Part shown: positions 3,534 to 62,500 of the stretch, piece after piece
Layout of the letters: every line of letters begins with the position of its first letter
Numbering within the stretch: the first letter of the stretch is position 1
Assembly: GCF_003233725.1 (NCBI RefSeq)
Contig: NZ_QKQV01000001.1
Span: 62,001-126,000 of the forward strand
Direction of reading: 5' to 3'
Length of the DNA stretch: 64,000 nt
Origin: Mesonia sp. K7
Lineage (GTDB): Bacteria; Bacteroidota; Bacteroidia; Flavobacteriales; Flavobacteriaceae
The notes under the pieces: model-generated
Seen by the model: the letters and a program-made list of their open reading frames with translations, nothing else
The model's database searches: none
What the model was told of the DNA's origin: nothing
Program-made: the position numbers and the translations under genes

Positions 3534-3568
3534 TAAAATTTATTTAGATTTATTTAAAATAACTTTGA

Positions 3569-3576
3569 TATATTTG
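3569..3576 (+). promoter_or_regulatory. Predicted -7 element for the heme receptor arm
   Basis: TATATTTG matches TAnnTTTG, 33 nt before the TonB receptor ATG. It is enclosed by an inverted repeat, AACTTTG at 3561-3567 and CAAAGTT at 3581-3587, which could be an operator. No regulator was identified. Confidence 0.5.
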
Positions 3577-3609
3577 CCTCGCAAAGTTAATTAAGATTAA
3601 TTACAAATA

Positions 3610-5754
3610 ATGAAAAAACTTCTATTTTTTATTCCTCTTATACTAGTAGCTCAACTCGCAGCGGCTCAAAACAATAAAAAAGTAGAAAAAGACAGCTTAA
3701 AAACCAATACGTTAGAAGAAGTTGTACTGACAGGACAATACAACCCACAATCGGTCAACAAGTCTGTTTTTGAAGTAGAAGTCTTAACCCAACAAGATAT
3801 TCAATTATTGGCAGGAAATAACCTAGCCGATGTGCTTACCCAAACCTTAAATATGAATGTTGTACCTAATGCCAATGGTGGTAAAACTGGTATTCAGCAA
3901 TTTGGTTTCGGTTCTGATTACGTAAAAATACTAGTCGATAATGTCCCGCTAATTGGCGATTTGGGCTTCGGAAATGCCATTGATGTTTCCCAAATAAACC
4001 TTGACGATATCGAGCGAATAGAAATTATCGAAGGTTCGATGGGCGTGCAATATGGTGCCAATGCCGTAACCGGGGTAGTCAATATCATTACCAAAAAATC
4101 TTCTCAAAATAAGTGGGAGATTGTTCCTTACGTTCAAGAAGAAACGGTGGGAAACGAATACAGTTGGTTTGATGAAGGCAGACATATACAGTCTTTAAAA
4201 TTGGGACATAATTTTTCAGATAAATGGTATGCCAATGTATTTTACACTAGAAACGATTTTCAAGGATTTTTAAACGATAAACAAGGCGTTCATTATTTTA
4301 ACACAGAAAACGGAAATGATGGTTTACGAGGTTATGAATGGTTACCTAAAGAGCAAAATAGTATCAAATCGTTACTCAATTATACTAATAAAAACTTTAG
4401 GGCTTTTTATAAGTTCGAATACTTTACAGAAAAAACAGAAAGGTACGCCAACAATGTTTTTTTAAATGAAAACACTTCTACAGAAACCTTTAATCCTACA
4501 GCAAACGACGAAATATTCCGCTCTAAGCGATTTTACCATCATCTAAATGTCACAGGAAAAATAAAGGAAAAAGTCAACTATAACCTTTCTGCTTCCTACC
4601 AAGAGCAAGTGATTAATTATAAGCAGTTTACCTATTACTTATATACCGAAGAAGAAATTTTACAAAATCAGTACGATTATAACACGAGAGAAGGTTTTTT
4701 CTCACGTGGTACTTTCAGTAATTTTTTTAACAGCCAAAAAGTACAGACCGAAATTGGATATGAAGTCAATCTAGACAAAGGAACTTCAAGTAATCTTTCT
4801 GAGCAAGACATCAGCATTCGTACCCGAGAAAATCGTTTTGATACGTATAGCCTTTTCGCTTCCGCGGAAATAAAAGCCAACGAAAAACTTTCGTTTAGAC
4901 CTGGAGCAAGAGTCATTACTTCGTCTATGTTCGATGTAAAATTTCCAGTATCACTAAGTGCTAAATATAATTTCAATAAAGGTTATCAATTGCGTGTTAT
5001 TGCAGGAACAGCGCCAAAACTACCCACTTTTGAGCAATTATTTTACTACTTGGTAGATTCTAACCATAATGTTCAGGGTAATGAAAACCTCAACCCAGAA
5101 AGCGGTAAATCTGTTTTTTTACATTTCAAAAAAACTTTTTGGTCGAAAGATTATGAATCTAAATACACTCCTAAGCTTTCATTGTGGTACTTAGATGTAA
5201 AAGACAAAATAGATTTAATTGTTGTTACCCCTACTCCACTGGCTTTTCAGTATATGAATATCGACCAATACAAGAACTGGGGAGTTACTTTTAGAAATAC
5301 TTTTAAGTATAAAAATTGGTCAAGTATTTTAGGACTTGGCATTTCTGGGCAATCAAAAATCTTAAATGCAGAAGAAAATTACAACGATGATTTTCTTTAT
5401 GGTTTTCAAGCTAATTTCAATCTAGCCTACAAAGTCCCTAAATGGAATACTACTTTTTCGACTTTCTTAAAATACAACGGTCCAGAATATCAGTTTTATA
5501 CGACCACCAACGAACAAGACGAAACTATTTTTGAACGTCAAAAACTCGAAGGCTATGCTTGGTTGAATGCCTCCGTTAGAAAAATAATTTTTAAAGATTT
5601 AGAAGTAACCGTTGGAGCTCGAAACATCGCAGATGTTACGCGTATCAATTTGAGCAATTCTCAAGGTGGAGCTCACGCTTCAGGAGCAGGTTCTCAACTT
5701 TTGGGTTATGGTAGATCTTACTTCATCAAACTCTTATACAACCTTAATTTTTAA
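3610..5754 (+). CDS. TonB-dependent outer membrane receptor, heme-type candidate
   Basis: Takes up a bound ligand across the outer membrane using TonB energy. The 714 residues show a signal peptide (about 1-20, ending AAAQ), a TonB-box-like TLEEVVLTG at about 34-42, a plug domain at about 50-165 (GSMGVQYGANAVTGVVNIITKK is the plug end) and a long beta-barrel ending with Phe. No CarboxypepD-like N-terminal domain is present. The next gene, 3 bp downstream, encodes a HmuY family lipoprotein, so the ligand is probably heme; this is inference. A dispersed palindrome copy lies at 4857-4870. Confidence 0.9.
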   Translation: MKKLLFFIPLILVAQLAAAQNNKKVEKDSLKTNTLEEVVLTGQYNPQSVNKSVFEVEVLTQQDIQLLAGNNLADVLTQTLNMNVVPNANGGKTGIQQFGFGSDYVKILVDNVPLIGDLGFGNAIDVSQINLDDIERIEIIEGSMGVQYGANAVTGVVNIITKKSSQNKWEIVPYVQEETVGNEYSWFDEGRHIQSLKLGHNFSDKWYANVFYTRNDFQGFLNDKQGVHYFNTENGNDGLRGYEWLPKEQNSIKSLLNYTNKNFRAFYKFEYFTEKTERYANNVFLNENTSTETFNPTANDEIFRSKRFYHHLNVTGKIKEKVNYNLSASYQEQVINYKQFTYYLYTEEEILQNQYDYNTREGFFSRGTFSNFFNSQKVQTEIGYEVNLDKGTSSNLSEQDISIRTRENRFDTYSLFASAEIKANEKLSFRPGARVITSSMFDVKFPVSLSAKYNFNKGYQLRVIAGTAPKLPTFEQLFYYLVDSNHNVQGNENLNPESGKSVFLHFKKTFWSKDYESKYTPKLSLWYLDVKDKIDLIVVTPTPLAFQYMNIDQYKNWGVTFRNTFKYKNWSSILGLGISGQSKILNAEENYNDDFLYGFQANFNLAYKVPKWNTTFSTFLKYNGPEYQFYTTTNEQDETIFERQKLEGYAWLNASVRKIIFKDLEVTVGARNIADVTRINLSNSQGGAHASGAGSQLLGYGRSYFIKLLYNLNF

Positions 5755-5757
5755 TCT

Positions 5758-7167
5758 ATGAGAAAAATTTTAGTTTATTTCAGTTTAATTTTTGTCGCCT
5801 TAGCAACAAGTTGTTCGAGTGATGATACCACAATTACAACAGAATTTGTGGCGGCATTCGAAAAACTATCGCTCAATTTAACCAATAATGATACAGCGGT
5901 TCCAGTAAAGATTGTTTTTTCTGAAACTGCAGAAGGTGATGGCACTATTTCTATTGCTGCCACGGAAAATAATTTGGTTTACGGCGAAGATTACACCACC
6001 AATCCTGCTATCGAGAACGGAGTTCTACAAATTCCTATTACTGCTGGAAGTAGCGAAACTTCATTTACTTTTCATAAACTTTCTGAGAATCCTACCGAAG
6101 GTGAAGCTGTAAAAAGCATAGAATTTACGATTTCTGAAGTAAGCAACGGCATCACACAAGGCAACACCACTTTACAAGTCAATTTTTCGGAGAGTGCCTC
6201 GCTTGGCGGAAGTTTGAAGCCTAGTGTTGGAGGTCCAAACCAACCTAATCAAGTTTACATCGATTTAAGTACAGAAAAAGAAACCCTTGTTAAAAGAGAC
6301 AAATGGGATTTGGCATTTTACAGCGGAGAAGAATTCCGCGTGAAGCTCAATAACTCAGTCTTTATGATGGCAGCAAAATTAAACACCACTAATATCGATG
6401 AAGTTCAGTCTGTAGATGTAGAGAGTTTACAAAGCCAAATGCAGTTGTTACAGCAAGGTTCAGAAATCTATGTAGACGACCCAAGCGGAGTTATTACAGG
6501 AACGGCTATCGATGAGATTTCTACCCATCTAGAAGAGAATAAAGTTTACCTGATTCATATGGGCAACGAGATTGGCACCAACACGCCAGAACCTGGAAGT
6601 GTTGCTGTGGCTGGAGATGCGCGTGGTTGGAAAAAAATAAGGGTTTATAGAGAAAACGGAAACTATATTTTAGAGTATGCCAATTTAGAAGCTACTTCGC
6701 ACCAAGAAATAGGCATTAGCAAAACCACTGGCTATCATTTTACTTTCTACAGTATGACCACACAAAGTGTCGTAAATGTGGAGCCAGAACAAACCAAATG
6801 GGACCTAAATTTTACTGTTTTTACTGAAGTGCTCGATTATCCCGATGGTGGAAAAACAGCTTACGGCTTTTCAGATTATGTAGCGACCAATGTATTGGCG
6901 CAAGCGAAAGTTTACCCTGTTTCTACTGAAGATTTTTCTTATCAAAATTTCGCTTTCGCGGATGTAAATACAACAAATTTTGAAATCGATCAACGTACCA
7001 TTGGTGCCAACTGGCGTGATGTTTTCAGCGGAAGCGTTGACACAACTTTATTCTACATCATCGAAGATGCCGATGGCAACATTTATAAACTACGATTTAT
7101 CGCTTTAGTAAACGAAAACGGTATTCGTGGTTACCCAGAATTTGAATATCAACTATTAAATCAATAA
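5758..7167 (+). CDS. HmuY family surface lipoprotein
   Basis: 469 residues. A lipoprotein signal ends in a lipobox with Cys19, and the acidic stretch SSDD right after it is of the type linked to surface export in Bacteroidota. An N-terminal beta-sandwich-like region (about 25-145) is followed by HmuY-like sequence in two parts: KRDKWDLAFYSGEEFRVK near 178-195 and a second QTKWDLNF near 343-350. HmuY proteins are hemophores that pass heme to a TonB receptor. The gene is tightly coupled to the receptor upstream. The metal ligands of this copy cannot be assigned by eye. Confidence 0.86.
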   Translation: MRKILVYFSLIFVALATSCSSDDTTITTEFVAAFEKLSLNLTNNDTAVPVKIVFSETAEGDGTISIAATENNLVYGEDYTTNPAIENGVLQIPITAGSSETSFTFHKLSENPTEGEAVKSIEFTISEVSNGITQGNTTLQVNFSESASLGGSLKPSVGGPNQPNQVYIDLSTEKETLVKRDKWDLAFYSGEEFRVKLNNSVFMMAAKLNTTNIDEVQSVDVESLQSQMQLLQQGSEIYVDDPSGVITGTAIDEISTHLEENKVYLIHMGNEIGTNTPEPGSVAVAGDARGWKKIRVYRENGNYILEYANLEATSHQEIGISKTTGYHFTFYSMTTQSVVNVEPEQTKWDLNFTVFTEVLDYPDGGKTAYGFSDYVATNVLAQAKVYPVSTEDFSYQNFAFADVNTTNFEIDQRTIGANWRDVFSGSVDTTLFYIIEDADGNIYKLRFIALVNENGIRGYPEFEYQLLNQ

Positions 7168-7198
7168 TCATTTACCTTAACAAATTCCTTATTATATT

Positions 7199-8440
7199 AT
7201 GAAAACAAAATTATTCTTCATCAATGCTTTTATCTTTTGCTTTTTCGCAAAAGCACAAGAAACGACAGTTAATGTATCAATGGCTGCAGACTCTACAGAC
7301 GAAGTATATTATAAAATCTCTACAGATATAACTCAAAATTTTACAGCAGCCGATTGGGATCTTGCTTTTTTAAGAACAAGCGCAATGAATATGGCCATTC
7401 GTGTAAACGACGGAGTTGGTATCAAAGTTTTTGAAGCGTCTGCAGATATTAACGATTGGGCAACTATAGATATTAGTAATGAAGCCAATTGGACAGAGTT
7501 GTACAACGATTGTAAAGACTGGAACATTGGTGCTTTTGATACAGGTACGGCAACTTATGGTTGGGGCGAATACAATCCAGCAAACCACCATGTTTCAGGA
7601 ACTATCATTTTTGTATTAAAATATTCCGATGGTACCTACCGTAAATTATTTATTGATGATTATTACGGAGGTTACACCTTTAAATATGCTACTTGGGATG
7701 CCACTAACTCGGTTTGGACGGCAGATGAAACGCACACAGTGGCAAATGCGAGCAATCCCAATCAAATCTTTAACTATTACAGTTTAGCCACAGACAGCGA
7801 AGTCATTGCCGAGCCAGCTTCAACAGACTGGGATTTTGTATTTAGAAAATACACCGCCGATTATCCTTATAACGGAACTACAATAAAGTATACTCTAACC
7901 GGTGTTTTACAACATCCAGAATTAGTAGTGGCTGAAAATATTGAACCCAATGGCCAAGGCGACACTTCTAACCTAACCTACGAGTCAGAAATAGATATCA
8001 TTGGTTATGATTGGAAAAGTTTTAGCGGAACTGCTTACAGTGTAAACCCAGATTTATTTTATTACGTAAAATACCCTAACGGTTCGATTTACAGAGTGCA
8101 TTTTACAGATTATAGTGGAAATACTAACGGTAACATAATCTTTACTACAGAAGATGTAACCAGCCAATTGAACATTACTTCTTTTGAAAACGGAAATAGT
8201 TTTGGTTTTTACCCAAATCCAGCTCAAGGCGAAATTAACCTCGTTTATGAGACCGCTCAAGCAAACGATATCAAGGTGAATATTTACAACCAATTAGGCC
8301 AAAGTGTTATCGAAAAACAACTCAAAAACAATGGATTCTATAACCAAGCACTAGATATTTCACAATTAAACACAGGAACCTATCTCATACAATTTGTTTC
8401 TGGAAAACAACAAACCACCAAAAAATTAATCATTCAATAA
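7199..8440 (+). CDS. HmuY-like secreted protein with T9SS sorting domain
   Basis: 413 residues: signal peptide (about 1-19, ending AKAQ), two HmuY-like stretches (AADWDLAF near 56-63 and STDWDFVF near 215-222), then a C-terminal T9SS type A sorting domain from about 340 (FGFYPNP, then GTYLIQF and KKLIIQ at the end). It lies 31 bp after the HmuY lipoprotein. The design suggests a hemophore released or anchored at the surface by type IX secretion, complementing the lipoprotein. The T9SS tail is clear; heme binding is inferred. A UUCG-loop terminator follows. Confidence 0.85.
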   Translation: MKTKLFFINAFIFCFFAKAQETTVNVSMAADSTDEVYYKISTDITQNFTAADWDLAFLRTSAMNMAIRVNDGVGIKVFEASADINDWATIDISNEANWTELYNDCKDWNIGAFDTGTATYGWGEYNPANHHVSGTIIFVLKYSDGTYRKLFIDDYYGGYTFKYATWDATNSVWTADETHTVANASNPNQIFNYYSLATDSEVIAEPASTDWDFVFRKYTADYPYNGTTIKYTLTGVLQHPELVVAENIEPNGQGDTSNLTYESEIDIIGYDWKSFSGTAYSVNPDLFYYVKYPNGSIYRVHFTDYSGNTNGNIIFTTEDVTSQLNITSFENGNSFGFYPNPAQGEINLVYETAQANDIKVNIYNQLGQSVIEKQLKNNGFYNQALDISQLNTGTYLIQFVSGKQQTTKKLIIQ

Positions 8441-8851: not shown

Positions 8852-8880
8852 AAAAGCACACTTTAAAAAGTGTGCTTTTT
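8852..8880. terminator. Bidirectional intrinsic terminator
   Basis: AAAAGCACACTT followed by an A-rich loop and AAGTGTGCTTTT forms a strong stem with T-runs on both strands. It serves the small Cys-rich gene (+) and the convergent TonB receptor (-). Confidence 0.85.
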
Positions 8881-8886
8881 TATGTA

Positions 8887-11364
8887 TTAAATTTTTATCT
8901 GAAGTGTTGCATACCAAGATACAGGTTCTGATGGTATAATACCTGGTCCTGGATAACCCGTTGCTCTTCTGGTAAAATAACTTTCATTAAGTAAATTGTT
9001 GATTCCTGTTTCGAGACGAAATCTTTTGTACACATAAGAGAAGGACAAGTCAACAATTCCGTAAGCTGGAATTTCTCCTGTGATACCACTATTTACATCT
9101 GTTTTATCTTGTTCTGCATTGGTCGCATCGGTATATTGCGAAGACAAATAGGTGTATTGTAATCCCACTGCAAAGTTTTTGTAACCAAAACTTGTTCCTG
9201 TTTTGAGGTTAATGCTTGGGATAAACTCTACTCTATTTCCTTGGATGTTATCTAATTCTGATTTTGTTGCAGTATATGAAGAAGAAGTGAGTGCATTATT
9301 GATAAAAAAGGTCCAAGTTGTATTTTCATATGGGAATGAAAATAGTTGTTTCAAATCGAATTCAGCAAAAGTCTCTAAACCATAGATAAACGCATCGCCT
9401 ACATTTCCGCGAAAGCGTATTAATTTACCTGTTTCTTCTAACTCACCACTTGCATTTACACGTTTTTCTTCTTGTAAAATTTCACCAATACGGTTACTAT
9501 AATCCAATCCGAAAACATTCACATCGTAAGAGATCTTATGGTTCAACTCACCTTTGACACCAAAATCTGCCGTAAAACCACTTTCATCGGTAATATTTGG
9601 ATCAACTTGAAAAGACGGATTGACCACCCGAATATCATTGAAGGTTACCGATCGGTAATTTTCTGAAAAGTTAGCATACAATTCATTCTTTGCGTTGATT
9701 TTATAGTTTGTTCCGAGACCGAGTAACAGAAAACTACGATCAAATTCTCTACGTTCAGGAACGGTTTCATTAAGAAGCACATTTCCTGCCAAATCGGTCA
9801 CAATATTTTTATATTCTCCAATCGCTTGTGTATTGATAAATTCTGCTCTAAAACCAGGAGTAACACTTAGTTTATCAGTGAAATTGATGATGTTTTCCCC
9901 AAATATAGCGAGGTTTTTATTGGGAAACTCAAAGGTAGATTGCCTTGGATAAGACGAAAATTCTTCGTTAGAAAAGGAAAAATCTGCTTCTTTCCCGTTT
10001 GGTCCAGCTCCTTGTTGTTGAAAATTTTTGGCTTGGTAATATTTCACTCCCAACAAACCTATAGATAAAATTTTAAAAAGGTCATAATGCTGTAAAACTC
10101 TCGTTTCTATTCCCCAATTCTGAAATTCATCTACCAACAATTCTCGTGGAAGTTCTTCATCATCTACAATAGAAACCCTGTTTTCTCTAAAACCCAAAGC
10201 CTTACGGGAAGCTTTTAAACCAAACACCTGAAAACTAAAATCGGTATGGTGAGAGAATTGATGCTTGAGTTTAGCCGAAAACAAATTCCAGTTTACGGCA
10301 AACCAGTTGCGCTCTCTATTACTGAATTTTGGGTCATCGTAAAACTGCTTATCAGATAAGCCGCCTGGCTGTTGAGCTAAATAATCTAAAAATGTGTATT
10401 CGAAACTTAACTTCGTTTTATCCGAAATTTCATAACCTAAATGTCCGAAAGCGTTATGAGAATCATATTCACTATTTGGTCGGTAAGCTTTTCCTCCTTT
10501 ATAGTTGTAAAACGTATAATAACTCAACTTCCCTACAGTTCCACTAAGGCTATTAAAACTAGAGAATTTATTAAAAGAACCTAAGCCCAGTCTAGAAATG
10601 AGCTCGATTTTCTTTTTTGAATTGGGTTCTTTAAACTTAAAGTTGATCAATCCTCCAAATTGTGGCCCATATTGTAGTGAAGCAGCTCCTCGAAGTACTT
10701 GAATTTCTTCTAAAGCCTCTGGCGGTGGTGTATAGTAACTTTCGGGGTAACCAATAACATCGGCTGAAATATCATAGCCGTTTTGTCGGGTATTAAAGTT
10801 TTGAGAACGATTCGGGTCTAAACCTCTTCCTCCTAGATTGAGCTGTAGACCCGCTGCTGCATCTTCATAAATATTTAACCCTACGACTTTACTATAAATC
10901 TGCCTAGCGTTGTTCGAAGCAATATTTCCTACTACTTTATCCAACAATACAACTTCGGTCTTTTTTCCTGCGTAAATGGCTGTTCCTTCTACAGGTTTAA
11001 GTCTTCTTAAAGAGAAAATTTTATCTCTTCTTAGTGAAATCACGACTTCAGAAAGTTGATCTGATAATGGTAAGAGCCTATATATCTGTGTTGTATTTTG
11101 ATTGACAAAAATTTGAGTTTCCAAAATCTCATGCTCGTGACTGTAAATAAGAATTGCATAATCTCCTTCTTCTAAATCGGTAAAGGTAAACTCCCCCTTT
11201 TTATTGGTTACTTCCATTTTACCGGAAGTTTCGAGATAAACTTCGGCTTCGTTTACAGGTAAGTTATTTTCACTATTGATCACTTTTCCCGAAAGGGTAA
11301 ATTGTGCCCACGAAAATTGAGTCAATAAAAGAAAAACAATAATACTATAAGCCTTTGATTTCAT
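8887..11364 (-). CDS. TonB-dependent receptor, FecA-like with CarboxypepD-like N-terminal domain
   Basis: About 825 residues from the preferred ATG at 11364, which gives a clean signal peptide (MKSKAYSIIVF to SWAQ). An upstream ATG at 11403 would add 13 residues lying inside the HTTM gene. Domains: a CarboxypepD_reg-like beta domain (about 20-105), plug (about 130-260, with LRGAASLQYGPQFGGLINF) and a barrel ending in Ile. The fold and RNWFAVNWN-type barrel resemble ferric-citrate type receptors. It is the last gene of the DUF4856-imelysin-HTTM operon and overlaps HTTM by 20 bp. An iron compound is the likely substrate; this is inferred. Confidence 0.88.
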   Translation of the reverse strand: MKSKAYSIIVFLLLTQFSWAQFTLSGKVINSENNLPVNEAEVYLETSGKMEVTNKKGEFTFTDLEEGDYAILIYSHEHEILETQIFVNQNTTQIYRLLPLSDQLSEVVISLRRDKIFSLRRLKPVEGTAIYAGKKTEVVLLDKVVGNIASNNARQIYSKVVGLNIYEDAAAGLQLNLGGRGLDPNRSQNFNTRQNGYDISADVIGYPESYYTPPPEALEEIQVLRGAASLQYGPQFGGLINFKFKEPNSKKKIELISRLGLGSFNKFSSFNSLSGTVGKLSYYTFYNYKGGKAYRPNSEYDSHNAFGHLGYEISDKTKLSFEYTFLDYLAQQPGGLSDKQFYDDPKFSNRERNWFAVNWNLFSAKLKHQFSHHTDFSFQVFGLKASRKALGFRENRVSIVDDEELPRELLVDEFQNWGIETRVLQHYDLFKILSIGLLGVKYYQAKNFQQQGAGPNGKEADFSFSNEEFSSYPRQSTFEFPNKNLAIFGENIINFTDKLSVTPGFRAEFINTQAIGEYKNIVTDLAGNVLLNETVPERREFDRSFLLLGLGTNYKINAKNELYANFSENYRSVTFNDIRVVNPSFQVDPNITDESGFTADFGVKGELNHKISYDVNVFGLDYSNRIGEILQEEKRVNASGELEETGKLIRFRGNVGDAFIYGLETFAEFDLKQLFSFPYENTTWTFFINNALTSSSYTATKSELDNIQGNRVEFIPSINLKTGTSFGYKNFAVGLQYTYLSSQYTDATNAEQDKTDVNSGITGEIPAYGIVDLSFSYVYKRFRLETGINNLLNESYFTRRATGYPGPGIIPSEPVSWYATLQIKI

Positions 11365-12709
11365 CGTTAAAAGGTAAAATATATGATCTTGGTTGAAAAT
11401 CATTTTTATAATGCAATAAATTTAGATTAGGATTGATATAGGGTTGGCTTTTTCTTCCGTTAAGGGCAACGTAACTTTCTACATAAACTTCAATTATGCC
11501 TTTTTCTTTTTTTTGGAAATGATCTGCTAAATAATGTGCATATTCAACCATAAAATCCGGCTGAAAAGCCATTTGTTTTTCCTGAAATGTCGTGAGAAAC
11601 TGGCTATTATCAACATAAAAGTTTTTTCCCGTATTGGTGTTTACAATTTTAAAATGTGCATAACCTGCTTTTTCCATCAACATCACGCGCCATGAAAAGC
11701 GATAACCTTCTTCTGTCCAAAATAATTCGCCAGGGTAAAGCAAATAACGCCAAGGAAAAAGAAATTGAATTGCAAAAAATACTATGAGAATGGGTTTTGT
11801 TATGCGTAAATATATTTTATTGAAAACCAACTGTTTTTCATTCATAAAAACTTGATAGTTGATTTTAAAAAATTTACTGATTCTTTGTAAAACTTGATGA
11901 TGAAAACCACTTCCAAAAAAAATTGTTACTGAAACAATCATAATGTAAGGAAACATCCCAATAGGGAAAAGCACCCGTGTTAAGACGTGAAAAACAACAA
12001 CTAAAACAAAAGCTATTTTTCGGGTTGGTTGGTACAATAATAAAAAAGGGATGCATAAGTCATATAACATTCCCAACCAACTAAAGACATAATGTGTCCA
12101 GGTTTGTTGAAAAAAATCTCCTAAAAATGGAATATCGTATTTAGAAGGCAACCAAATCTTCAAAGGCATTGCCTCTAATAACCAATCGGAATTGAGCTTT
12201 GCTAGTCCTGCATAAAAATAGACGATGCAAATGAGCAGTTTGATGCTATCTATCGTCCATTTTGGAATTTGCTGATAAGATTTACTAGGGTTTAATTTCG
12301 CATCGAGCGAAAAAAAAGCTGAAGCGGGTAAAAAAATCATCAGAAAACTTAAAATACTGATGAAGTAATAATGATTGAGATAGGTAGTTTTGTCCATCAG
12401 TTCGATGTAGGTAAAACTTAAAAAAAATAGCACGATTGCTATCCTGTATTTATAACCCAACATGACCAATAAAGCAGCGATAAAGCAAATGGCAAAAACC
12501 ACATAAGTATAATTCCCGAGTGGCTTTATCCATTCAAACCCGATATATGAAAAATGAAATTTCGGTTGTAGGTAAAGTTTGTCTATCCAACCGTTAAGCG
12601 TAAATCGCAGTAAGCTCAGCATCATCATGAAACCAAAAAAAACACGAAATGCAGCTAATGGTGCTGCATCCGTACTTTCTTGAAAATATTTATGACTTAC
12701 TAAAGACAT
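11345..12709 (-). CDS. HTTM domain membrane protein (vitamin K-dependent gamma-carboxylase-like)
   Basis: 454 residues with about nine to ten hydrophobic segments in the first 330 and a soluble C-terminal part. Family signatures are FYAGLAKLNSDWLLEAMPL (near 165-185; the lysine in GLAK corresponds to the base-forming region of the carboxylase fold) and VFHVLTRVLFPIGMFPY near 238-255. HTTM proteins share the fold of gamma-glutamyl carboxylase, but most bacterial members have no proven reaction. Position between an imelysin gene (10 bp) and a TonB receptor (20-bp overlap) indicates a part in iron or peptide-ligand handling; this is inference. Confidence 0.85.
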   Translation of the reverse strand: MSLVSHKYFQESTDAAPLAAFRVFFGFMMMLSLLRFTLNGWIDKLYLQPKFHFSYIGFEWIKPLGNYTYVVFAICFIAALLVMLGYKYRIAIVLFFLSFTYIELMDKTTYLNHYYFISILSFLMIFLPASAFFSLDAKLNPSKSYQQIPKWTIDSIKLLICIVYFYAGLAKLNSDWLLEAMPLKIWLPSKYDIPFLGDFFQQTWTHYVFSWLGMLYDLCIPFLLLYQPTRKIAFVLVVVFHVLTRVLFPIGMFPYIMIVSVTIFFGSGFHHQVLQRISKFFKINYQVFMNEKQLVFNKIYLRITKPILIVFFAIQFLFPWRYLLYPGELFWTEEGYRFSWRVMLMEKAGYAHFKIVNTNTGKNFYVDNSQFLTTFQEKQMAFQPDFMVEYAHYLADHFQKKEKGIIEVYVESYVALNGRKSQPYINPNLNLLHYKNDFQPRSYILPFNDEIKGL

Positions 12710-12719
12710 ATTTGCGGTT

Positions 12720-13829
12720 TTAGTCGCCGTCTGTATCTACATAATCTACACTTATCGAAAGGGCTTGTAACATATCTAATTTTAGAAAGACTACATTTTT
12801 TTGCATGCTTTCATAAGTTTCGAGCATTTTTGAATTGTTATTTTCAACTTCAAATACCAAATTGTCATTTAATTGATTTGCCAATTGCAACGACTCTTGG
12901 TACTGGTTAACAATAAGCGCTGATAAATCTTCTCCTTCTTTAATAGTGTTTAAAAAATCTAAGTATGATTTAAAACTTTCGCCTTGCATGTTATGAAGCG
13001 TGTGCTTTCCTTCAAAAAAATCTTTACTAGCAGTTAAAGCTGTAAGCAACAAAGTTTTTGAAAACTCCGGGTTGTAATAAGATTCTACGGTTTGCGGCTC
13101 AATATTTCCTGAAAAAACACCTGCAGGAATACCTACTTTCCCACTACGTACAAACTTCTCATAATGAATGATAAAATCGTTTGCCATCTTATCTACAGCA
13201 CCTGTACTCGACGAGCTTGTATTGTTTACAAACTCATCTCTAAAGCTATTGTTCCATTGGTTGTTCACTTCGTTACCTAAAGTTTGTATTCTTTCAACAA
13301 CAGCATTTAGATAATAGGTATAAGTTTCTTTGAATTCACCTGTAGCGTAAGCATTTACAATAGCTTGGTCGCTGGTTTCAATTCCGTAAAGTAAAAAATC
13401 TAAAGCCGGAAAACCTTGTTTATCGCGCGTAGATGGTAATTCTAAATTAGGATATTCATGTGCTTTGACAATTCCATCGATAGCAGTTGCATTGGTTGGA
13501 TAAGTATTGGTGTAACTTCTAAAATCTAAACTTTCTGCTGGGCCAATTTCAAACATACTTATTTGTTGAAAAGCAATATAAGCATCCTGATAGGCCTGTC
13601 TTAACGCATTTAGATTTGCTAAACTCGCTTCTGTTACAAACTGAGCTGAAGCTGTTGCTAACACCTCTATCTTTTCTACGTAGTTAGCATAAGAAGGCAA
13701 AATAATATTGTCTGCCCAATTGGTCAACAGAACACTTCTATCGTAATTGTCTGAAGAACTGCCAGAAGATTCATCATCTGTACAAGCAGCCAAAAACAAT
13801 ACACTTAAAATTAGAATTATCTTCTTCAT
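12720..13829 (-). CDS. Imelysin family surface lipoprotein
   Basis: 369 residues with a lipobox at Cys16 followed by TDDE, an acidic tail of the type that sends lipoproteins to the cell surface in this phylum. The imelysin signature is clear: KAHEYPNLELPSTRDKQGFPALDFLLYG spans about 120-150. Imelysin (IrpA/EfeO-like) proteins are associated with iron uptake, though the bound ligand is generally unknown. It is 20 bp after the DUF4856 gene and 10 bp before HTTM, so one transcript is likely. Confidence 0.9.
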   Translation of the reverse strand: MKKIILILSVLFLAACTDDESSGSSSDNYDRSVLLTNWADNIILPSYANYVEKIEVLATASAQFVTEASLANLNALRQAYQDAYIAFQQISMFEIGPAESLDFRSYTNTYPTNATAIDGIVKAHEYPNLELPSTRDKQGFPALDFLLYGIETSDQAIVNAYATGEFKETYTYYLNAVVERIQTLGNEVNNQWNNSFRDEFVNNTSSSSTGAVDKMANDFIIHYEKFVRSGKVGIPAGVFSGNIEPQTVESYYNPEFSKTLLLTALTASKDFFEGKHTLHNMQGESFKSYLDFLNTIKEGEDLSALIVNQYQESLQLANQLNDNLVFEVENNNSKMLETYESMQKNVVFLKLDMLQALSISVDYVDTDGD

Positions 13830-13849
13830 AAAAATAGGTACTGTTTTTA

Positions 13850-15079
13850 TTAGTCAACCATTTCTACTGTGATACCATAATCAGAAGCAATTTCTTGAGA
13901 AATTTCATCTAATAAAGTTGCATCAACACTCCAGAACCCATCATTTTCCATTAATTGGTCGATATAGTTGTAGATTGCCGTATTTGAAAGGTAAGGCTCG
14001 TTAGTTTCTGGGTTTTGTGAAAAACGAATGCTATAGAAAAACCCTAAACCTTCTGATAACTCGTGGAAAGCAGCTCCCATCTCGTTATTTGCTAAAGATG
14101 TTTTTCCCGCTTGGAAATAATGAATTGCTCTCACAGCAAACAGCATCGATACATTCTCTTTGATAATTGCAATTTGTTGATCTCTTACTTCGTAATTTTT
14201 CTGAGTAATCGCTGCTCTTCCTTTTTTGAAAGCATCGAAAATAGTTGTTGCAATTCCTGCAAAATCATCATCTTCATCTACCTGAAATAAATAATTGAAC
14301 AATAATCTATCTTCGTGAACTTCTTCACTTGACAAAGGATCTGCTTGAGGCACAGAAGCATCACCAAATAAATAACCATAGGCTTCATCCCATTTATGCT
14401 CCATAGTCGTATAAGACTTGTCTGTTTCAACCACATCATTATCGTTGTTTTCTCTGTTGTTTCCTTCGTCTAAAACATCAACAGACAAATAATTATTTAA
14501 CATCTGATCGGCCAATAAGGCGCCCATTAAACTTTTGGCAAACATTTGGTTGTATTCTAAACCTTTACCGTTTACATATCTTGTTCTTGTTCCTTGAGCA
14601 ATCTGCCCAGCAACACCAGCAGAAGCTAAGGTATTTCTACTTACGTATACTTCTTGCGCTTGACCAATCATCCAGCTTTCAAAAGCATCTTTTATTTCTG
14701 CAGACTCTACCGCAGCGATAGAAAAATAATCTTTAGAAGCGGCAACTTTACTCTTAATGCTTTTATCTGAAGCGTTAAAATCAGCATTTGCAAAAGGACT
14801 GTTTTCATTAGAAAACATATTTAGCATTTTGGTTTCGAAAGAGTTAGCATCGCTTACATTTTCGAAATCCGTAAATAAGCTAGTCAACTCGTTTGCCATT
14901 TCTATTCTAGTTGTTTGACCATTATAATCTACTGTAGAAACACCATTTCTCTCGAAAGTGTAGGTTTCAGGAACATCAATTTGATTATCTGGAATATCAA
15001 CATCTAAATCGTCATTATCAGAACAACTGGTAATCAATAAACTTACAAAAAGGAAACTTGGAATAATTAGTTTTTTCAT
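13850..15079 (-). CDS. DUF4856 family surface lipoprotein
   Basis: 409 residues: lipobox with Cys19 followed by SDNDD, then a helical protein. YTFERNGVSTVDYNGQTTRIEM near 40-62 and EHKWDEAYGYLFGD near 225-240 fit the DUF4856 family as I remember it. It is the first gene of the imelysin-HTTM-TonB operon, with a recognisable promoter and palindrome upstream. The fold is probably imelysin-like (all helical), which is inference. Function unknown apart from its iron-linked company. Confidence 0.85.
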   Translation of the reverse strand: MKKLIIPSFLFVSLLITSCSDNDDLDVDIPDNQIDVPETYTFERNGVSTVDYNGQTTRIEMANELTSLFTDFENVSDANSFETKMLNMFSNENSPFANADFNASDKSIKSKVAASKDYFSIAAVESAEIKDAFESWMIGQAQEVYVSRNTLASAGVAGQIAQGTRTRYVNGKGLEYNQMFAKSLMGALLADQMLNNYLSVDVLDEGNNRENNDNDVVETDKSYTTMEHKWDEAYGYLFGDASVPQADPLSSEEVHEDRLLFNYLFQVDEDDDFAGIATTIFDAFKKGRAAITQKNYEVRDQQIAIIKENVSMLFAVRAIHYFQAGKTSLANNEMGAAFHELSEGLGFFYSIRFSQNPETNEPYLSNTAIYNYIDQLMENDGFWSVDATLLDEISQEIASDYGITVEMVD

Positions 15080-15124
15080 TTTAATTTATTTAGACTTTAT
15101 ATAAATAGTTTTATTTTACTCGCG

Positions 15125-15156
15125 CAAAAATAATTGTCTATAATGAAATAGACAAA
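15125..15156 (-). promoter_or_regulatory. Promoter with operator-like palindrome for the imelysin operon
   Basis: On the minus strand TTTG (15153-15156) and TATTTTTG (15125-15132) are separated by 20 nt, an excellent match to the Bacteroidota -33/-7 pattern. Inside the spacer is GTCTAT-N6-ATAGAC (15136-15153), which overlaps the -33 box by one base. A repressor bound there would block initiation, so regulation by iron status is plausible but not shown. Confidence 0.65.
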
Positions 15157-15237
15157 ATTTATTTGTATTAATTTTAAATAAAAATAATGCGGATAAAAAA
15201 CCCAACCCAATGAAAAGCAATAAGTAAAAAATAAATA

Positions 15238-61573: not shown

Positions 61574-62500
61574 TTAAAGTTTAAACTTGATTCCACTACG
61601 TATATAAAAAGTATTGTCGTTTTCAATGACATAAACATCTTCTCTGTCGTTGTCCCTTAACCTGTATTCGTTATAAACCGTGTGACCGCCATATGCATAA
61701 AAAACGATATGATCGGTAAAATAGTGTTCGTAACCAAAACCTAAAATAATTTGTGTCGCCGATATGTTTTGGGCGATATTTTTACTTCCTTCTACCGCAA
61801 AATCTTCTTGAATATTAGCAAAAAAATTGTCTAGCATCGCATAAGCCTGAACGTGGTTTGTGGCATTAAACTTATAACGCAAGGCCATTTTTGGAACCCC
61901 TACGGTGTAGGTCCATTGCGGATGAAACTCCCGGAAATAATTAATAAAAGGAAGTGGGTAATTTCGCCCTGGAGTCGTCGAATATAAAGCTCCTATAATC
62001 AAACGGTATGGTTTAACGGTTGCATCATCTCCTTTTTTATCGAGAATGGCGTATGCACTTATCGAATAAATATAATCATCTGAAATGGGTTTACCTTGTA
62101 AATTGGATGCTATTCTCACTCCTGTGTTTACTGCCAATCGCCAGTCGCTCTCTGGTTTGGGTTTAAAAACATACCCTAAACTTGCTTGTATGTTATGTAA
62201 TTCTTTTAAATTTTCTGTTGAAAAGGGAAAAGTGTCATCAAAATCGATATCGAACTTACGGTAATCTAAACCTATCACTAAAAAATTATCGTTCCATAAA
62301 GGAATTGGACCTTGTAAAAATCCGCGAAAGCGATTGACCGATTGTCTTCCTTCTGTGTATGGAATTCTGGTATATTCTAGTCTAACTAAATCTGTGGTTT
62401 GAGCTTTAGAATGGCTTGGTGCAATGGTTAATAAAATCAACAGCAAACCTGATAACGAAAGTAATCTCATAGAGTTATGGTTAGATTTTGTGGATAACAA
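61574..62500 (-). CDS. DUF6268-like outer membrane beta-barrel protein
   Basis: 308 residues with a signal peptide (about 1-33, ending SKAQ) and alternating hydrophobic strands ending in aromatic/Phe-x-Leu (GIKFKL). The pattern IRSGIKFKL and strands such as TYTVGVPKMALRYKF suggest a 12- or more stranded porin-like barrel of the DUF6268 type. Coupled to the sigma-54 regulator. A TCCGCGAAAGCG copy of the dispersed palindrome lies at 62321-62332. Confidence 0.75.
   Translation of the reverse strand: MLSTKSNHNSMRLLSLSGLLLILLTIAPSHSKAQTTDLVRLEYTRIPYTEGRQSVNRFRGFLQGPIPLWNDNFLVIGLDYRKFDIDFDDTFPFSTENLKELHNIQASLGYVFKPKPESDWRLAVNTGVRIASNLQGKPISDDYIYSISAYAILDKKGDDATVKPYRLIIGALYSTTPGRNYPLPFINYFREFHPQWTYTVGVPKMALRYKFNATNHVQAYAMLDNFFANIQEDFAVEGSKNIAQNISATQIILGFGYEHYFTDHIVFYAYGGHTVYNEYRLRDNDREDVYVIENDNTFYIRSGIKFKL

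Follow-up and report, generated by a model that had tools for sequence, protein, structure and literature searches.

A predicted iron-acquisition operon of Mesonia sp. K7 encodes a homolog of the vitamin K-dependent γ-carboxylase

We find that a four-gene operon of Mesonia sp. K7, strongly linked to iron, encodes what is by sequence comparison a full homolog of the vitamin K-dependent γ-carboxylase (VKGC), next to two lipoproteins and a FecA-like TonB-dependent receptor. The human vitamin K-dependent enzyme activates clotting factors, and γ-carboxyglutamate (Gla) is a calcium-binding modification of animals. We favor a model in which Fur represses the operon, whose products acquire iron and include a dedicated membrane-bound modification enzyme: an inner-membrane, menaquinol-dependent glutamate carboxylase would modify a secreted partner, from which ferric iron would be handed to the receptor. 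We place the probability of this full reading at roughly 45%, a little short of even odds.

Results

Operon layout and iron regulation

The window analyzed here is the 64,000-nt stretch at positions 62,001–126,000 of the forward strand of NZ_QKQV01000001.1 (Mesonia sp. K7, GCF_003233725.1); its features are collected in Table 1. Genes for a DUF4856 lipoprotein, an imelysin lipoprotein, an HTTM/VKGC protein, and the receptor follow one another on the minus strand, with gaps of 20 bp (DUF4856/imelysin) and 10 bp (imelysin/HTTM). The mechanically called open reading frame of the receptor begins at 11403; an alternative in-frame ATG at 11364 is followed by an ordinary signal peptide and gives a 20-bp overlap with the HTTM gene. 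The gene layout described in the first-pass annotation is reproduced in full with this start, and by that layout the four genes make up one predicted transcription unit, within which no inner-membrane transporter gene was found.

Table 1. Features of the operon and its flanks in the Mesonia sp. K7 window
Feature	Position	Strand	Evidence
Terminator-like hairpin after receptor gene	8852..8879	.	12 pairs, loop of 4
FecA-like TonB-dependent receptor with carboxypeptidase-regulatory-like N-terminal domain	8887..11364	-	PF00593, PF07715, PF13715
VKGC homolog, HTTM + VKGC lumenal domain, 454 aa	11345..12709	-	PF05090 281.7 bits, PF22777 193.2 bits
Lys171 = GGCX Lys218 (base deprotonating vitamin K hydroquinone)	12197..12199	-	Conserved in 151/151
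Asn112-His113 = GGCX Asn159-His160 (glutamate-binding pocket)	12371..12376	-	Alignment; conserved in 151/151
Imelysin-family lipoprotein, IPPA/PA4372 type, 369 aa	12720..13829	-	PF09375 94 bits
C-terminal Asp-Gly-Asp (DGD) of imelysin	12723..12731	-	DGD in 143/144 VKGC-linked imelysins, DGDS in 1
DUF4856 lipoprotein, first gene, 409 aa	13850..15079	-	PF16148 443 bits
Second Fur-box-like site, by start codon	15082..15112	-	20.3 bits
Fur-box-like operator, top match of the 64-kb window	15155..15185	-	31.9 bits; 10 shuffles ≤10.5

The upstream operator scores 20.0 bits under a shorter matrix built without the window. A Fur box precedes 120 of the 121 DUF4856 operons, compared with 18 of 384 upstream regions taken as controls and, for VKGC genes that lack an adjacent imelysin gene, 4 of 29. 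The same gene order in Riemerella anatipestifer (RAYM_09779-09794: a TonB-dependent receptor, a “Vitamin K-dependent gamma-carboxylase”, a “Putative lipoprotein Imelysin”, and one gene annotated as hypothetical) is raised in low iron and listed as Fur-regulated (PMC5609570); each gene appears singly there, and DUF4856, a module, and carboxylation go unmentioned in the parts considered. Because of the Fur box and this iron-repressed gene order, we regard the iron link of the operon as strong, in agreement with the first-pass annotation. Our analysis gave nothing in support of the calcium or copper role that had also been raised. The HmuR/HmuY haem-uptake operon at 3610–8440 of the same window has the same type of Fur box in front, but it lacks a VKGC gene and its lipoproteins are of HmuY type.

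The HTTM protein as a VKGC homolog

Both domain profiles of the HTTM protein are above cut-off, with the PF05090 domain followed by the lumenal domain, and human GGCX chains match it over residues 11–447 (E 1e-43). The two proteins share a two-domain architecture over ~440 residues, in which N159, H160, K218, and the greater part of the vitamin K pocket are retained. In GGCX, Asn159 and His160 act in the pocket and Lys218 as the base (PMC12589487). The equivalents of N159, H160, K218, W223, F286, H287, F294, F299, W399, and M402 are kept in all 151 members of the clade. Unlike human GGCX, however, clade members carry Ala at the K217 position (150/151), Leu at N158 (151/151), Val at M401 (151/151), and Thr at N290 (150/151), and ~250 C-terminal residues of the human enzyme, including much of its propeptide-binding region, have no counterpart. 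The bacterial protein also differs in being encoded in an iron operon, and its carboxylase activity is putative. Lys217, Asn158, Met401, and Asn290 belong to the pocket and coupling region as found in the human enzyme and do not define the family; the K217A substitution in GGCX impairs substrate binding and spares catalysis (PMC12589487).

The cofactor is native, since the genome encodes both MenB (407.5 bits) and MenA (246.8 bits), each above cut-off. No VKOR-family vitamin K epoxide reductase was found in this genome, and of the 82 genomes with VKGC, 18 carry VKOR where 19.1 would be expected, so that VKOR was ruled out as an associated recycling partner.

The lipoproteins and the search for a substrate signature

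The PF09375 match, the structure model, and a sequence motif assign the second-gene protein to the imelysin fold and the IPPA/PA4372 family. The model, with a pLDDT of 92.5, is matched by Foldseek to 4ecg, 3pf0, and 7xrx, and the profile match to 3pf0 extends to the last residue. GFPALD stands at the position of GxHxxE, with the His replaced, as in the definition of the family (PMC3143127), and with the final Glu also changed to Asp.

The DUF4856 protein was likewise annotated initially as imelysin-type, and this part of the description found no support: hhalign places its similarity to imelysin at the signal peptide only. Its AlphaFold2 model is largely helical (mean pLDDT 91.2) and has no match in the PDB at E < 0.001, the best being 0.95. 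The top structural rows are helical bundles (Z ≤7.8), which is not evidence of a new fold, and imelysin is absent among the structural matches, which does not in itself exclude an imelysin fold. The NCBIfam model FEA1_rel_lipo scores 28.5 bits against a cut-off of 250, and the lipobox Cys19 is kept in 46 of 46 sequences. Both lipoproteins are probably located at the cell surface. For the receptor, the NCBIfam siderophore/FecA models score below cut-off.

A comparison of 144 VKGC-linked imelysins with 9 + 5 others revealed no glutamate that is specific to the linked set. Glu224 and Glu249 are each present in 144/144 imelysins of VKGC operons; outside such operons E224 is kept in 4/9 and 3/5 and E249 in 7/9 and 4/5, leaving both unsupported as VKGC-specific sites. 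The C-terminal DGD was ruled out as such a carboxylation site because it also ends 9/9 proteobacterial and 5/5 Bacteroidota imelysins from di-haem operons, as well as 3pf0. For DUF4856, four loci from five genomes without a VKGC match were tallied (G128 was left out). E175, E227, E232, and E343 are Glu in 7 of 16 cells, against 34 of 56 for the remaining fourteen conserved columns with charged or polar residues, in a set of loci too small and too divergent to carry weight.

The proposal that the HTTM protein is a glutamate carboxylase gains weight from full VKGC homology and an intact catalytic pocket in an organism that makes menaquinone. The iron part of the first interpretation is supported; its calcium and copper part is not.

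A conserved gene cluster in Bacteroidota

Gene-neighborhood statistics, proposed at the outset as a check, place the association of VKGC with DUF4856 far above chance in our sample of 395 genomes. The two co-occur in 53 of the 395 (12.0 expected), and VKGC adjoins 53 of 59 DUF4856 matches, where ~0.16 neighboring pairs were expected. An imelysin gene lies immediately upstream of 69 of 97 VKGC genes in the same genomes, and the full four-gene set is present at 75 of 80 named loci. With starts as mechanically called, the VKGC and receptor genes overlap in 131 of 144 cases. The imelysin-linked enzymes form a single clade (SH-aLRT 99), in which they account for 70 of 71 rows. This four-gene order is a conserved Bacteroidota module, and the operon occurs in many cultivated marine Flavobacteriaceae; Zobellia uliginosa and Bizionia argentinensis are two marine flavobacteria that have it.

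Discussion

In the model that we favor, low iron would lead to production of all four proteins, and the VKGC homolog would be an inner-membrane protein whose active site lies on the periplasmic side. There, with menaquinol, O2, and CO2 as reactants, it would carboxylate one or several glutamates of another protein of the operon (candidates being DUF4856, imelysin, or the receptor) while that protein is still on its way to the outer membrane. The resulting malonate-like Gla side chain would bind a hard cation strongly, in this case most probably Fe3+ or ferric citrate, and the bound iron could then pass to the FecA-like receptor. The model draws on VKGC homology, the invariant pocket, the single clade, the gene order, the Fur box, MenA/MenB, and the R. 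anatipestifer response (PMC5609570). Against it stand the lack of a substrate signature in imelysin, the absence here of VKOR and its lack of association with VKGC, the altered K217, N158, M401, and N290 equivalents, the ~250 missing C-terminal residues, and one genome in which VKGC is present without its three operon partners alongside. The more specific proposal that Bacteroidota make Gla, with a Fur-controlled, menaquinol-dependent carboxylase acting on DUF4856 or on the DGD-tailed imelysin as a lipoprotein of the surface, so that Gla serves as a ferric ligand for the receptor, is tentative and in our view less likely than not.

The VKGC homolog might instead perform menaquinol/O2 chemistry other than glutamate carboxylation, epoxidizing menaquinol or acting on a residue other than glutamate or on a small molecule, for example a ferric chelate that the cell has taken up. 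The N158, K217, M401, and N290 equivalents depart from GGCX in essentially all members, imelysin has no VKGC-specific conserved Glu, and a Leptospira homolog reportedly does not carboxylate. However, the N159–H160 pair and K218 are invariant and K217A spares catalysis (PMC12589487), and we consider this alternative unlikely. Less probable is a true carboxylase whose substrate is encoded elsewhere, the gene lying in the operon only because the enzyme is needed in low iron. The lone VKGC gene mentioned above, which scores 16.4 bits for a Fur box, would fit such an arrangement, as would VKGC paralogs at unrelated sites (for example, after ribF) and a locus where the VKGC and receptor genes are preceded by one for a CARDB-domain surface protein, in a genome in which a search for imelysin found none. 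Yet members of the clade nearly always occur together with the three partners, and in two Roseivirga genomes VKGC lies away from imelysin and the receptor but still with a DUF4856 gene. We give least credence to an ordinary iron-uptake operon in which HTTM provides an inner-membrane step, as a menaquinol-linked ferric reductase or permease, and no modification enzyme is involved. HTTM proteins are polytopic and the operon encodes no inner-membrane transporter, as such a role would have it, but invariant VKGC catalytic residues and a lumenal domain would be unexpected in a permease.

If the carboxylase model is correct, a hallmark of vertebrate blood clotting has a bacterial counterpart that serves to capture iron, and the organisms concerned produce vitamin K2 themselves; protein γ-carboxylation is then also a bacterial tool for iron acquisition, beyond calcium binding in animals. 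The presence of this gene in an iron-uptake cluster suggests that in these bacteria a surface protein may undergo the chemical change made by the human enzyme, as a means of catching iron. HTTM/VKGC proteins, which are common in bacterial annotation without a settled role, would gain a concrete, testable function, with neighboring operon genes as candidate substrates.

In the open literature (subscription papers and preprints being outside the scope), we found no paper joining any two of imelysin, DUF4856, and HTTM and no mention of DUF4856, and none of the matches listed concerned bacterial protein γ-carboxylation; bacterial-homolog terms were not found in PMC9146348. Among the closest described systems is the proteobacterial imelysin operon of the PA4370-PA4373 type, which comprises imelysin, a di-haem oxidoreductase, an IPPA-type imelysin, and DUF1513 and is Fur-regulated in P. 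aeruginosa (PMC3143127). It has in common the IPPA-type imelysin with a C-terminal DGD but, in the annotated loci compared, differs in its di-haem enzyme and in lacking VKGC, DUF4856, and an adjacent same-strand receptor. One hybrid locus carries both VKGC and the di-haem enzyme.

Operon layout and conservation

Gene calls and domain matches confirmed the four genes of the first-pass annotation, all on the minus strand, with their gaps of 20 and 10 bp, on an assembly of 2.55 Mb in 34 contigs; the 20-bp overlap between the receptor and HTTM genes agrees if the receptor starts at the candidate ATG. The gamma-carboxylase-like HTTM protein is indeed a homolog of vitamin-K-dependent gamma-carboxylase (VKGC), by PF05090, PF22777 and phmmer to human GGCX chains (1e-43; bacterial residues 11-447 vs human 57-505). 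Only one of the two lipoproteins described as imelysin-type is recognisably so: a profile comparison of DUF4856 with imelysins matched the signal peptide only.

Coordinates of operon genes and associated features in the window
Feature	Position	Strand	Remarks
DUF4856 gene	13850-15079	minus	PF16148, 443 bits
Imelysin gene	12720-13829	minus	PF09375, 94 bits
C-terminal DGD (Asp-Gly-Asp) of imelysin	12723-12731		also in loci L170, L253-L260
HTTM/VKGC gene	11345-12709	minus	HTTM PF05090, 282 bits; VKGC lumenal domain PF22777, 193 bits
TonB-dependent receptor gene	end 8887; candidate ATG start 11364	minus	
Terminator-like hairpin	8852-8879		after receptor gene
Fur-box-like site	15155-15185		before DUF4856, 31.9 bits
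Fur-box-like site	15082-15112		before DUF4856, 20.3 bits
Fur-box-like site	3536-3566		before HmuR/HmuY-like operon, 28.9 bits
Fur-box-like site	3584-3614		before HmuR/HmuY-like operon, 17.5 bits

We searched one set of 395 Bacteroidota genomes for PF22777, PF16148 and PF09375, which occurred in 82, 58 and 90 genomes, respectively. An imelysin gene lies directly upstream, on the same strand, of 69 of the 97 VKGC genes (52 of these 69 also with DUF4856), and 53/59 DUF4856 matches adjoin both VKGC and imelysin. VKGC co-occurs with DUF4856 in 53 genomes (12.0 expected) and with imelysin in 72 (18.7 expected), in a sample whose genomes are not independent of each other, so that p-values carry no weight here. 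The gene-neighbourhood statistics proposed by the first-pass annotation show partners that adjoin and co-occur above expectation.

Gene maps of 100 fetched stretches gave a single order, DUF4856, imelysin, VKGC, receptor, in every whole operon. Where DUF4856 was not called, a 356-471-aa ORF occupies its position in 16 rows; one is a di-haem oxidoreductase (locus L081), and six others, combined into a profile, align with DUF4856 along its length (hhalign probability 99.9). Of at least 572 relatives, the top 80 provided a set of named genome loci, in 75 of which all four genes stand in order; the remaining five are two from Roseivirga (L200, L217), two at contig edges (L203, L244) and one without a called DUF4856 (L223). 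With mechanically called starts in both locus sets, the median distance from imelysin end to VKGC start is 7 bp (145 pairs), and the receptor gene overlaps VKGC in 131/144 pairs. Among the matches listed, the closest named relatives of the HTTM/VKGC protein are from Mesonia, Salegentibacter, Zunongwangia and other Flavobacteriaceae, at no more than 71% identity.

Iron regulation

That the operon is real, conserved and iron-linked is nearly certain. In Riemerella anatipestifer RNA-seq, four genes (RAYM_09779-09794) are listed as Fur-regulated, with WT-Fe/WT+Fe and fur deletion with iron values, respectively, of 2.11 and 1.90 for RAYM_09779 (TonB-dependent receptor), 2.64 and 1.39 for RAYM_09784 ('Vitamin K-dependent gamma-carboxylase'), 3.07 and 1.93 for RAYM_09789 ('Putative lipoprotein Imelysin'), and 2.41 and 1.36 for the hypothetical RAYM_09794; the qPCR of that study covered other genes (PMC5609570). 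From its position, we infer that RAYM_09794 is DUF4856.

The 19-bp R. anatipestifer Fur box as given in PMC5609570, allowing up to four mismatches, matched 118/128 DUF4856 upstream regions, compared with 49/905 other upstream regions, some of which lie in the operon's own intergenic region, and 9/640 shuffles. This count uses the published box alone and is independent of a matrix that we built from the matched sites, the window's own included. Against a shuffled maximum of 10.5 bits in the 64-kb window, just four sites scored higher, two before DUF4856 and two before the HmuR/HmuY-like operon; the window still scored 20.0 bits when left out of a shorter matrix. Scores of at least 12 bits were found at 120/121 DUF4856 operons, a figure that is partly circular because these upstream regions also supplied the matrix, at 17/22 imelysin-VKGC loci without a called DUF4856, at 4/29 VKGC genes that have no imelysin next to them, and in 18/384 controls.

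In Tenacibaculum maritimum under low iron, outer-membrane vesicles are reported to contain abundant FecA homolog, together with four imelysin-like lipoproteins associated with it that are likewise abundant (PMC10288586). Transcripts lowered in a B. argentinensis mliR mutant include an imelysin-like gene and a TonB-dependent siderophore receptor (PMC9478572); the operon is present in that species (L239), and the passage does not specify which imelysin is meant. Of the metals named in the first-pass annotation, iron is the one left, through the Fur boxes and the R. anatipestifer data in PMC5609570; nothing we found supports calcium or copper. The plus-strand genes at 3610-8440, behind the two Fur-box-like sites at 3536-3614, encode a TonB-dependent receptor and two HmuY-domain proteins, the first a lipoprotein and the second bearing a T9SS sorting tail.

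Imelysin type and related operons

The operon imelysin is of the IPPA/PA4372 type, with GFPALD and the His of GxHxxE replaced, and its AlphaFold2 model (pLDDT 92.5) is closest to 4ecg and 3pf0. DGD ends 143/144 VKGC-linked imelysins (the other has DGDS) and also 9/9 proteobacterial IPPA-type imelysins; we rejected it as a carboxylase-linked signature, since these controls place it in the IPPA family at large. The tail is disordered in 3pf0 (PMC3143127).

In the annotated proteobacterial loci examined, the gene before the IPPA-type imelysin encodes a di-haem oxidoreductase or a c-type cytochrome. L081 combines both arrangements: an imelysin piece, a di-haem oxidoreductase (PF06537), an IPPA imelysin, VKGC and receptor. 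Because Proteobacteria share the imelysin type and L081 joins the two arrangements, the VKGC module appears to have been reworked within Bacteroidota from an older iron system based on imelysin. The operon of canonical imelysin, di-haem oxidoreductase and IPPA imelysin also occurs in Bacteroidota without VKGC (L223:10922-14731, L261-L264), and sometimes beside the VKGC operon.

The VKGC homolog and its candidate substrate

In human GGCX, as described in PMC12589487, K218 is the active base, N159, H160 and Y395 hold the glutamate, and K217A harms substrate binding rather than catalysis. We compared the pocket residues described there across the imelysin-linked clade. Equivalents of N159, H160, K218, A214, W223, F286, H287, F294, G297, F299, W399 and M402 are identical to GGCX in 151/151 sequences. 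The K217 equivalent is Ala and that of N290 Thr (150/151 each), those of N158 and M401 are Leu and Val (151/151 each), and the Y395 position varies between Tyr (114 sequences) and Phe (37). Set against these GGCX roles, the catalytic core is preserved and the coupling residue is lost. The bacterial protein is shorter than human GGCX by about 250 residues at the C-terminus.

Menaquinone is the native form of vitamin K2, and the window's organism, whose genome holds menA and menB, is predicted to make it. VKOR was not found in this genome and showed no association with VKGC across the genome sample; any recycling of the epoxide would fall to a different enzyme, or menaquinone would be replaced by synthesis. 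The HTTM protein likely performs VKGC chemistry of some kind.

The chances that it carboxylates glutamate on an operon partner are about even. Sequence comparison identified no substrate, and VKGC-linked imelysins have no specific glutamate relative to imelysins outside VKGC operons. In two Roseivirga genomes, VKGC stays with a DUF4856 gene and imelysin and receptor are located elsewhere, accompanied in one by a second DUF4856; this split leans toward DUF4856 as the VKGC partner. L081, whose operon has VKGC, imelysin and receptor without DUF4856, leans against that pairing, although a complete operon (L080) is present in the same genome. In a Flavobacteriaceae MAG where no imelysin was found, the gene at L244:2-982, upstream of VKGC and receptor, encodes a CARDB-domain protein that has a stretch rich in Asp and resembling a calcium site.

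VKGC phylogeny and paralogs

A phylogeny of 94 VKGC proteins groups the imelysin-linked or receptor-linked members in one clade, where they make up 70/71 rows (SH-aLRT 99). The exception, L134 in genome G108, is a lone VKGC, missing DUF4856, imelysin and receptor and flanked by the same 525-aa and 444-aa proteins that border the full operon in L112; it retains a Fur-box score of 16.4 bits, and may reflect loss or an assembly artefact. Elsewhere, its genome encodes a canonical imelysin, a di-haem oxidoreductase and a DGD-tailed imelysin (L261). A second VKGC in the window's own genome (L130:8066-9397, contig C30), after ribF with a small overlap, falls in a separate clade. Related genes also follow ribF in other Flavobacteriaceae-like genomes, and these retain N159, H160 and K218, with His in the place of Y395.
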